Source: Fundidesulfovibrio terrae (GTDB lineage Bacteria > Desulfobacterota > Desulfovibrionia > Desulfovibrionales > Desulfovibrionaceae). Taken from it: DNA of 64,000 nt. The notes beneath the pieces were generated by a model that was not told the DNA's origin, did no database searches, and saw only the letters and a list, made by a program, of their open reading frames with translations. Shown piece by piece: positions 23,236 to 26,183 of the stretch (its first letter is position 1; each line of letters starts with the position of its first letter). Location of the stretch: contig NZ_JAKZFS010000003.1 of assembly GCF_022808915.1 (NCBI RefSeq), forward strand, positions 186,001 to 250,000, given 5' to 3'. The position numbers and the translations under genes are program-made.

Positions 23236-25008
23236 ATGAACGCCCGCTTAAACGGATGGATGGGATGGGTGCTCCGGGTGGACCTCACAACGGGCACGGC
23301 CTCCCGTGAGCCTCTCGACCCCGCCGCGCTGCGCCTGAACATCGGCGGCAAGGGGCTGGCCGGGCATTTCCTCGATCCGTGCGTCCACCTGCCCTGGGAC
23401 CACCCGGACATGCCCCTGTGCCTGTTCACCGGCCCCCTGGTGGCCACCATCGCGCCCACTTCCGGGCGGGCCTGCCTGGCCACCCGCTCTCCCCTCACCG
23501 GAGCCTTCTGCGACGCCTCGGTGGGCGGAAGCCTGGGTACCCAGCTCAAGAAGGCCGGATTGGACGGACTGATCGTCACCGGCCGGGCTCCGCGCCCAGT
23601 GGGGATCGTCATCGAGAACGGCGAAACCTCCGTGCGCGACGCCTCGCATCTGGCGGGCATGACCCGCGACCGGGTCCGCGCGGCCCTGGACTGCTCCGGG
23701 TCGCTTGCCGTGGTGGGCCCGGCGGCCGAATGCGGCGTGCGCTTCTCCTCCATCATGGTGGATACGCACCACGCCTTCGGGCGCGGCGGCATGGGGCTTT
23801 CCTGGGCGGCGAAAAATCTCAAGTACCTCAGCGTCAAGGGATCGGAGAAGGTGCGCGTGGCCGATCCCGAGGGGCTGAAAAAGGCCCGCGAGGACATCTT
23901 CCGGCTGGTGTCTGCCTCGCCGGTGCTCTCGGGCGGGCACGGGTTCTCCTGCTTCGGCACGGGCGCGCTCTACGACCTCATGGACTCGCGGCGCATGATG
24001 CCCACGGACAACTTCCGGGCCTCCCACTTCGCCCCCGCCGGGGAGCTGAACGCCGTGCGCTACAAGGAAGCCTACCAGACATCCAAGCACGGCTGCAAAG
24101 GCTGCCACATCCAGTGCAAGAAGGTGGCGGCGGACGGGCGCTCCATGCCCGAATTCGAGACCATGTCGCACTTCACGGCGCTCATCGGCCTGACCGACAT
24201 CGAGTTGGTGGTCGCGGCCAACGCCCTGTGCAACGACCTGGGCATGGACACCATCTCCAGCGCCGTGACCCTGGCCTGCCACGCAGAAATTACCGGCGAG
24301 CGCCTGACGCCCGCCCGCGTCCTGGAACTTCTCGAGGACATGGGCCGGGGACGCCTGCCCGAACTCGGCCTGGGCGCGGCCGGATACGCCGCCCTGAAGG
24401 GACATCCGGAAGCGGCCATGACCGTCAAGGGCATGGAACTGCCCGCCTACGACCCGCGCGGGGCCTACGGCATGAGCTTGGCCTACGCCCTGTCCACGCG
24501 CGGCGGCTGCCACCTGAGGGCCTACCCTGTGAGCCACGAGATCCTGCGCAAGCCCGTGGCCACGGACCGGTTCAGCTTCCTGGGCAAGGCGCGCATCATC
24601 AAGATCGCCGAGGACGCCAACGCCGTGGTGGATTCGCTCACGGCCTGCAAGTTCATCTTTTTCGGGGCCTCCCTTGAGGAGTACGCGGCCGCCTACCAGG
24701 CCGTGACTGGAGAGCCCTCCTCGGCCCAGGACCTGCTGCGCCTGGGCGAACGCATCTACTACCGCGAGCGCATCATGAACGCACGCCTGGGCTTTACCAG
24801 CGCCGACGACGACATCCCGGCCCGGTTCTTCGAGGCTCCGGGCGAGCACAGCCTGGCCGGGGACATCCGCCCCGTGCCCAGGGTCGACTTCCTGGAGGCG
24901 CGGGCCAAGTACTACGCCATCCGAGGGCTCACCGAGGACGGCATGCCCACGCAGGAGAAGGCGAAAGAACTCGGACTTGAAGAGAGCTACCGGCAGGAAA
25001 TGCGATGA
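23236..25008 (+). CDS. Aldehyde ferredoxin oxidoreductase family protein (tungsten/molybdenum)
   Basis: A 590-residue member of the AOR family, which oxidises aldehydes to acids with a pterin-bound W (or Mo) and a [4Fe-4S] cluster. The N-terminal AOR domain is clear (LRVDLTTGTASREPLDP; LNIGGKGLAGHF; PTSGRACLATRSPLTGAFCDA; GGMGLSWAAKNLKYLSVKG). Three cluster cysteines lie in KHGCKGCHIQCKK (about residues 285-293), and the fourth is probably the Cys of DSLTACKFIFFG (about 471). Length is normal. The next gene, an aldolase-domain protein, overlaps by four bases (ATGA), so the pair is translationally coupled. The actual substrate is unknown. Confidence 0.88.
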   Translation: MNARLNGWMGWVLRVDLTTGTASREPLDPAALRLNIGGKGLAGHFLDPCVHLPWDHPDMPLCLFTGPLVATIAPTSGRACLATRSPLTGAFCDASVGGSLGTQLKKAGLDGLIVTGRAPRPVGIVIENGETSVRDASHLAGMTRDRVRAALDCSGSLAVVGPAAECGVRFSSIMVDTHHAFGRGGMGLSWAAKNLKYLSVKGSEKVRVADPEGLKKAREDIFRLVSASPVLSGGHGFSCFGTGALYDLMDSRRMMPTDNFRASHFAPAGELNAVRYKEAYQTSKHGCKGCHIQCKKVAADGRSMPEFETMSHFTALIGLTDIELVVAANALCNDLGMDTISSAVTLACHAEITGERLTPARVLELLEDMGRGRLPELGLGAAGYAALKGHPEAAMTVKGMELPAYDPRGAYGMSLAYALSTRGGCHLRAYPVSHEILRKPVATDRFSFLGKARIIKIAEDANAVVDSLTACKFIFFGASLEEYAAAYQAVTGEPSSAQDLLRLGERIYYRERIMNARLGFTSADDDIPARFFEAPGEHSLAGDIRPVPRVDFLEARAKYYAIRGLTEDGMPTQEKAKELGLEESYRQEMR

Positions 25009-26183
25009 TCAGACTGCTCGCCAAATACGCCGACAAGATCGCGGCCGCCCGGCTCTCCGCTCCCGGGGCGCCTCTCCTGGCCGGGCTGGACGACGCCCTG
25101 GTGTTCAACCGCGAAGCGCAGGAGTCCTCCGTGCTGGCCGGGGTGTTTGACCGCATGAGCATCAATTCGCTGCTCTTTCTGCCGCCCGCCGAGCCCTACG
25201 CCACCATCATCGACTTTTTGGCCGCGCGCTCGGCCGAGGGTGGGGAAGCCTCCATCGCGCCGAGCGACTGCGAGACCCGCACCTTCCTGCACGACCTGCC
25301 CGTGGTGGCCGAGTTCACTCCGGACGCCCTAGCCTCGGCGCTCAAGCGCCGCAAGAGCGTCATCGTGCCGGGCAAGGGCGTGGTGGCCCACGGCACCGTG
25401 AGCCCGGAGCAGGCCTTCGTCAGCGCCAGTTCCGTGTGCTTCGCCTGCTTCGTGAAGTTCTTTGCGGATTACCTGGCCCAGCTGCGTTGCGGCAAACCCG
25501 ACGCCGAATACCAGGCGGCCTTCGAGCGGGCGAAAACCTTCCTGCCCCCCATGCACCACCGCGCCCCGGACCTGCCCGCCGGGCCGTTCGCCGACCGCGA
25601 AGCCGTCATCCAGGCCATGGACCTCACCGGCAAGGCCACCGTGGGCTACGGGCTGGTGGATTCGTTCTTCGGCAACATTTCCTACTGCCTGGACGACGTC
25701 CTCTACATCAGCCAGACCGGCTCGTCGCTGGACGAGCTGCCCGACTGCATCGACCCCTGCCACCTGGACGGATCGTCCTGCGCGGGGCTCACGGCGTCCA
25801 GCGAGCTCATGGCCCACCAGGGCATTGTTCTCAAGACCGGGGCCAAGGCCATCCTGCACGGGCATCCGCGCTTCGCGGTGATCATGTCCATGGATTGCGA
25901 CAAGAAAGGTTGCGACAAGATCGGGCGCTGCCACATCGAGTGCACCGAGCCGCGTTTCGTGTGGGACGTGCCGGTGGTGCCGGGCGAGGTGGGCACGGGG
26001 CCGAGGGGGCTCGTGAACACCCTGCCCCCGGCCATGATCGGCAGGCGCGGGGTGATCGTGTACGGACACGGGCTCTTCGCGATCGGTCGCGAGGATTTCC
26101 GCGAGCCCTTCGCAACGCTTCTGGAAGTGGAGAACTACTGCCGCGAGGAGTACTTCAGGCGGGTGGAGATGCTCGGTTCCTGA
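25005..26183 (+). CDS. Class II aldolase/adducin-domain protein with Cys-rich insertion
   Basis: A 392-residue protein. The C-terminal half (about residues 205-390) has class II aldolase features: GLVDSFFGNISYCLDDVLYIS, the metal-ligand pair in AILHGHPRFAV, and the third His in VIVYGHGLFAIGREDF. The family uses a divalent metal to cleave or epimerise hydroxy-aldehydes or ketones. The N-terminal half is a degenerate related fold with VVPGKGVVAHGTVS. Odd are two Cys-rich stretches, LPDCIDPCHLDGSSC and DCDKKGCDKIGRCHIEC, not part of the standard fold and suitable for Zn or Fe-S. It overlaps the oxidoreductase gene, suggesting it supplies or consumes the aldehyde. Confidence 0.78.
   Translation: MIRLLAKYADKIAAARLSAPGAPLLAGLDDALVFNREAQESSVLAGVFDRMSINSLLFLPPAEPYATIIDFLAARSAEGGEASIAPSDCETRTFLHDLPVVAEFTPDALASALKRRKSVIVPGKGVVAHGTVSPEQAFVSASSVCFACFVKFFADYLAQLRCGKPDAEYQAAFERAKTFLPPMHHRAPDLPAGPFADREAVIQAMDLTGKATVGYGLVDSFFGNISYCLDDVLYISQTGSSLDELPDCIDPCHLDGSSCAGLTASSELMAHQGIVLKTGAKAILHGHPRFAVIMSMDCDKKGCDKIGRCHIECTEPRFVWDVPVVPGEVGTGPRGLVNTLPPAMIGRRGVIVYGHGLFAIGREDFREPFATLLEVENYCREEYFRRVEMLGS

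Follow-up and report, generated by a model that had tools for sequence, protein, structure and literature searches.

Positions 23,236 to 26,183 of a 64,000-nucleotide stretch of Fundidesulfovibrio terrae (assembly GCF_022808915.1, contig NZ_JAKZFS010000003.1, positions 186,001 to 250,000 of the forward strand; the whole stretch is called the window here) encode an AOR-type aldehyde:ferredoxin oxidoreductase (AOR), followed directly by a class II aldolase. This AOR-aldolase pair is widespread among anaerobic bacteria, tightly linked and sometimes fused. Profile comparisons indicate that the aldolase is composed of two copies of one domain, the result of a tandem duplication, and its second domain bears a conserved motif of four cysteines (Cys4). 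We read the pair as a two-enzyme module that would make and oxidise an aldehyde, with 5-deoxyribulose-1-phosphate or its methylthio analogue as the likeliest substrate; this is a tentative reading, given somewhat less than an even chance.

Both superfamilies are known, but no description was found of the conserved pairing, of the duplicated aldolase with Cys4 or of the fused forms. In the literature searched, the scope of which did not extend to subscription papers and preprints, AOR and class II aldolase did not occur together, and class II aldolase in combination with tungsten led to a single glycolysis review (PMC12965863).

Gene pair and features

The two reading frames and the shared ATGA, as given in the earlier note, were found again. 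The features of the pair are, with the basis of each assignment in brackets:

23236..25008, + strand: gene for the AOR, 590 amino acids (Pfam AFOR_N/AFOR_C; best solved relative 1aor, E 6e-96)
24094..24117, + strand: AOR C287-x2-C290-x3-C294, predicted as three ligands of a [4Fe-4S] cluster (1aor alignment)
24157..24159, + strand: AOR E308, counterpart of 1aor E313 (1aor alignment)
24511..24513, + strand: AOR H426, counterpart of 1aor H448 (1aor alignment)
24646-24648, + strand: AOR C471, predicted fourth ligand of the [4Fe-4S] cluster (1aor alignment)
25005..25008, + strand: ATGA shared by the AOR stop and the aldolase start (reading frames)
25005..26183, + strand: gene for the tandem-duplicated class II aldolase, 392 amino acids (Pfam, profile comparison, AF2 model)
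25005..25559, + strand: degenerate N-terminal aldolase domain, residues 1-185 (hhalign profiles, second match of NF006413)
25260..25301, + strand: conserved segment of the N-terminal domain, P86-x-D-x-E-T-R-x-F-x-H-D-x-P99 (alignment)
25590..26180, + strand: predicted catalytic C-terminal aldolase domain, residues 196-392 (VIA-align to FucA 2fk5; residue conservation)
25746..25781, + strand: first cysteine group C248, C252, C259, variable (alignment of 128 homologues)
25896..25943, + strand: Cys4 motif C298-x4-C303-x5-C309-x3-C313 (alignment of 128 homologues)

Distribution and coupling

A named contig collection holds 416 places that encode a relative of the aldolase, and the best 80 of these 416 were analysed. 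An AOR, or as much of one as the contig holds, lies upstream on the same strand in 78 of the best 80 loci. The two genes overlap in 65 loci (by exactly 4 nt in 23 of them, measured to a script-chosen aldolase start), are 0-50 nt apart in nine and lie farther apart in four. The two loci without AOR are L073, with none in the 10.3 kb locus, and L121, which meets the contig end. Among 39 wider loci (L031-L069), drawn from the strong matches in the window's class, a same-strand AOR is present in 36, partial in L066 and L069. It is absent from L032, L035 and L049, of which L035 is from the genome of L073; wider stretches fetched for two of these three loci (L257, L258) contain no AOR either.

AOR and aldolase form a single reading frame in L061, L063 and L065. 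The fused frame of L064 begins inside the AOR and is partial; the four fusion loci span two genera. No such AOR was found in 60 genomes that lack the aldolase: the closest is 36% identical, versus 38-92% for the AORs of paired loci (window's excluded). The joint function proposed in the earlier note gains support from the conserved overlap, the fusions and this absence.

In the window's class an aldolase match is present in 94 of 297 genomes, 82 strong (E < 1e-30) and 12 weak. Counted on the aldolase alone, 43 of 394 genomes of the phylum, from 12 families, have a near full-length match (E < 1e-80). The best 80 loci come from Desulfovibrionaceae, Desulfobacteraceae, Desulfobulbaceae, Syntrophus, Fermentibacteria/Aegiribacteria, Aminicenantes, WOR-3/Stahlbacteria, Planctomycetota, Lentisphaerae, Spirochaetota, Chitinivibrionales, Eisenbacteria, one Nanohalarchaeota bin and others; these labels are taken from titles, mostly of metagenome bins, and may be wrong. 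The pair is conserved well beyond close relatives. No relative of the aldolase was found on viral contigs or plasmids.

In L145 a radical S-adenosylmethionine (SAM) gene (L145:2895-3965) lies downstream of the aldolase and overlaps it. The same cluster occurs in L117, L135 and L147; Pfam was run on L145 only.

The aldolase

Pfam Aldolase_II matches residues 209-381 of the window aldolase (E 7e-20), and NF006413 matches the N-terminal domain separately (E 1.4e-6). Profiles of both domains, compared by hhalign, match single-domain relatives (E 3e-17 for the N-terminal and 5e-41 for the C-terminal domain) as well as each other (E 8e-7). The AF2 model has a mean pLDDT of 90. Its C-terminal domain superimposes on T. 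thermophilus FucA (2fk5) with a VIA-align Z of 22.3 over 173 residues and a root-mean-square deviation of 1.8; VIA-align rows mostly cover residues 196-392, and the N-terminal domain was assessed by profiles. A model of the AOR-aldolase fused protein (pTM 0.73, mean pLDDT 76.5) is too weak for domain placement.

Residue conservation was scored in 128 distinct sequences out of 133 aldolases taken, a subset of all relatives. G223, N224, S265, S266, E267, H285, H287 and H355 are constant in all 128, T238 occurs in 127 of them and G239 in 114. By the correspondence with FucA that we assume for these positions, the C-terminal domain is predicted to have the three metal histidines, the catalytic glutamate and the phosphate-site residues of a class II FucA-type aldolase. 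The enzyme had earlier been named a class II aldolase, and the complete fuculose-1-phosphate-type active site agrees with that assignment.

The N-terminal domain has lost the catalytic motifs and retains D88, E90, H96 and K117 in 128 of 128 homologues. Its DxExRxFxH segment is equivalent to PxDSExxYLLHxxP, which follows HxH in the single-domain relatives paired with an AOR. At the equivalent position of the C-terminal domain stands the Cys4 motif, with C298, C309 and C313 in all 128 homologues and C303 in 127; it is missing in nine of nine single-domain relatives compared. In FucA structures this region extends into the active site of the adjoining subunit. From these structures we infer that the N-terminal domain gives the loop and the C-terminal domain the metal and the base. 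The degenerate domain would probably act as a built-in adjoining subunit, its DxExRxFxH loop serving the one active site. The C-terminal loop, relieved of that duty and made redundant by the duplication, would have turned into a metal site, in which the four cysteines probably bind Zn2+ or an iron-sulphur cluster.

Two extra cysteine groups had been pointed out in the earlier note. The second, placed there at about residues 305-320, is the Cys4 motif at C298-C313, which does not vary freely among homologues. The first does not hold up as a conserved site, since C248, C252 and C259 vary (present in 99, 97 and 73 of the 128). The duplication itself, the motif-free single-domain form paired with an AOR and the AOR active-site changes of some lineages had all been missed.

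The oxidoreductase

Pfam AFOR_N (E 1e-52) and AFOR_C (E 3e-97) match the window AOR, which exceeds the cut-off of no NCBIfam family. The alignment with 1aor runs nearly end to end, and C287, C290, C294, C471, E308 and H426 are all present, in agreement with the AOR-type enzyme proposed earlier; the roles assigned to the cluster cysteines, Glu313 and His448 of 1aor are those we presume. The window genome has five AFOR_C matches (L153-L157) and a single class II aldolase, so that only the window AOR is paired with one.

Conservation was followed in 105 rows of paired AORs, among which L038 and L076 represent one genome. C290, C294 and C471 are kept in all 105 and C287 in 104 (one Ser). Position 308 is Glu in 88 rows and position 426 is His in 93; both residues are retained in 86, the window's among them.

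Single-domain relatives and origin of the pair

Eleven loci with weaker aldolase matches from the phylum were read (L246-L256). In seven of them (L246-L250, L252, L254), which come from four families, an AOR is followed directly by a single-domain aldolase of 184-200 amino acids, and none of these seven aldolases has the Cys4 motif. The other four (L251, L253, L255, L256) have no such AOR. The NF006413 cut-off of 203 bits is passed by the AOR-paired L246 (218) and L249 (227); the unpaired L251 (197) falls below it.

In a tree of 146 AOR rows (142 different), built by a quick method after removal of rows shorter than 480 amino acids and trimming of fused rows to 620, the AORs whose partner is a double-domain aldolase make up a single clade (SH-aLRT 100). 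The AORs of L246-L248 stand next to this clade (support 100) and the remaining single-paired AORs are basal (80). Where single- and double-paired AORs join, the support at the base is 80, and the program gives a warning that long branches meet there. Because single-domain pairs lack Cys4, and because of the order in the tree, the coupling seems to be older than the duplication and the motif, within the limits set by long branches and a quick method.

Proposed reaction and substrate

The linkage of an aldolase to an aldehyde oxidoreductase suggests a hand-over of aldehyde. In the proposed mechanism the C-terminal domain probably uses its metal site (H285, H287, H355) and the catalytic E267 to split a 1-phosphorylated ketose in a retro-aldol reaction that yields dihydroxyacetone phosphate (DHAP) and a small aldehyde. 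The aldehyde would be channelled to the coupled AOR and oxidised to the acid, with reduction of ferredoxin. With 5-deoxyribulose-1-phosphate (or its methylthio analogue) from the salvage of 5'-deoxyadenosine or methylthioadenosine as substrate, the aldehyde would be acetaldehyde. In PMC6079011, PMC10986504 and PMC12632272, 5-deoxyribose salvage and the DHAP shunt employ a kinase or phosphorylase, an MtnA-type isomerase and a class II aldolase, and give acetaldehyde or methylthioacetaldehyde; the passages of PMC10986504 and PMC12632272 contain no mention of ferredoxin.

The genome inventories, whose counts carry no correction for kinship, bear on the substrate indirectly. In the window's class, 77 of the 82 genomes with the module match class II aldolases just once (G030, G152, G220, G228 and G279 do so more often), and this sole match is located at the module in 29 of the 30 module genomes listed. 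Genomes of the class without the module have a different class II aldolase in 194 of 215 cases and none in 21. The module aldolase stands alone in 29 of 42 genomes of the best 80 that were picked for spread outside Desulfovibrionaceae. The isomerase gene mtnA was found in 30 of 30 module genomes tested and in 40 of the 42 from other groups. Module-less G048 and G065 have mtnA-class II aldolase-mtnP operons (L244:3950-6474; L245:2974-5535; mtnP assigned by eye), which hold their sole class II aldolase and show the layout of the clusters presented in PMC6079011 and PMC10986504.

Several observations weigh against this interpretation. The stretches read of G140, G159 and G164 have the aldolase without such an AOR, and additional class II aldolases are matched in 13 of the 42 module genomes from other groups. 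Since mtnA is also present in 27 of 30 module-less genomes and in 374 of 394 genomes of the phylum, its near-universal presence shows no more than the availability of the upstream isomerase, and mtnA was rejected as a discriminating co-occurrence partner. Two of the 43 module genomes of the phylum (G401, G616) lack mtnA, module-less G087 has mtnA and no class II aldolase, and only one module locus, L075, has mtnA inside the fetched stretch; in one Syntrophus contig (L241) it is some 8.5 kb away from the pair. The mtnA of the window genome does not cluster with an aldolase plus mtnK or mtnP, unlike the loci of the DHAP shunt and 5-deoxyribose salvage. The aldolases of the two mtnA operons of G048 and G065 match both the MtnB and the aldolase models weakly, and in view of the match to the dehydratase MtnB they may not be aldolases. 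Finally, Glu308/His426 is altered in 19 of the 105 paired AOR rows, all four fusions included, and the aldolase active site stays constant although these residues of the partner vary.

Alternative explanations

The same transfer from aldolase to AOR could serve a different ketose-1-phosphate (fuculose-, ribulose- or xylulose-1-phosphate), with lactaldehyde or glycolaldehyde as the product. The conserved FucA fold and phosphate-site residues fit this, as do weak matches to models of ribulose-1-phosphate and fuculose-phosphate aldolases, but no third gene is widely kept: the widest cluster of neighbours covers 21 of 119 loci (some genomes counted twice, clusters judged by eye with no family-library run), so no sugar kinase or isomerase generally accompanies the pair. 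We regard this alternative as doubtful, though worth keeping in mind. A pterin route, in which dihydroneopterin or its phosphate would be split into hydroxymethyldihydropterin, the substrate of FolK, and glycolaldehyde, the latter oxidised by the AOR, is raised by the seven single-domain pairs, four of which (L249, L250, L252, L254) have folK upstream. Moreover, folK is immediately next to the aldolase in L251 and some 2.4 kb from it in L255; these folK calls include a family model for L252 only. PMC1971073 reports folB missing from many bacteria; it also gives that role to a transaldolase, which speaks against the route, and a relative of that family is encoded in L251 and L255. In the stretches fetched around the double-domain module, tblastn did not match folK anywhere, which speaks against replacement of FolB by this module; the pterin route as a whole has little probability. 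The gene order in L251 is folK-aldolase-fructose-6-phosphate aldolase.

The altered AORs lead to another explanation, in which the aldolase does the catalytic work and the AOR serves, in some lineages at any rate, as a subunit for electron transfer or as a scaffold. Twelve of the 19 altered rows (L041, L042, L048, L054, L056, L058, L061-L065, L112) lack the histidine and keep the cluster cysteines, and all four fusions belong to these twelve. Across the whole set the [4Fe-4S] cysteines are retained in 104-105 of 105 rows and the aldolase active site is unchanged in 128 homologues; some aldolases have no AOR nearby. The window AOR, however, is one of the 86 that have both Glu and His, and in the other seven altered rows Asp for Glu, a mild change, is the sole one. 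In the altered lineages the AOR may have a changed activity or a scaffold role; as an account of the pair this is quite unlikely. A further alternative is an epimerase, decarboxylase or dehydratase function of the C-terminal domain. Such enzymes belong to the same superfamily, and there are weak matches to MtnB and decarboxylase models, but a partner that oxidises aldehydes would best suit an aldolase that releases one; this function is very improbable.

Comparison with known systems

The C-terminal domain has its fold in common with FucA, DrdA and Ald2 (Z 22.3 to 2fk5 and 19.8 to DrdA, 6btd), and the window aldolase also has their metal histidines, catalytic Glu and phosphate-site residues. 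It differs from them in its duplication, the degenerate N-terminal domain, the Cys4 motif and the AOR adjoining in nearly all loci. Its best NCBIfam match is NF006413 (PRK08660 aldolase; 142.5 bits, below the curated 203), compared with which it is double-length and carries Cys4. With 1aor and its relatives the window AOR has both domains, the four cluster cysteines and the counterparts of Glu313 and His448 in common; the aldolase-coupled AORs differ in forming a separate clade with Glu/His altered in some lineages. In aldolase-acylating aldehyde dehydrogenase complexes of the DmpFG type, the aldolase passes its volatile aldehyde product on to an oxidoreductase bound to it, which uses NAD+ and CoA. 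The protein folds of the window pair are unrelated to these, and it would depend on tungsten and ferredoxin rather than NAD+/CoA.

The natural substrates of the AOR family are often uncertain, and the favoured aldehyde-transfer reading would, if true, provide one AOR clade with a physiological source of aldehyde. PMC6079011 allows for an unidentified aldolase in 5'-deoxyadenosine disposal, and the aldolase of the pair would then also be a candidate for this enzyme. A more far-reaching version, which we consider rather unlikely, would have a SAM-derived deoxysugar phosphate turned into an aldehyde that passes straight into the AOR, within an undescribed complex, widespread in anaerobes, whose duplicated aldolase bears its own metal (possibly Fe-S) site; waste disposal of radical SAM enzymes would so yield reduced ferredoxin. 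Two features are testable with purified proteins. One is the duplication, with an active site that the catalytic and the degenerate domain probably share; the other is the change of active-site residues in the AOR while its aldolase partner stays constant.

Class II aldolases of genomes without the module frequently carry a TrmO-like (tRNA methyltransferase O) domain as an N-terminal fusion. Such fusions occur in L214-L219, L221, L225, L227, L232 and L234; L216 was assigned with family models and the rest by eye.

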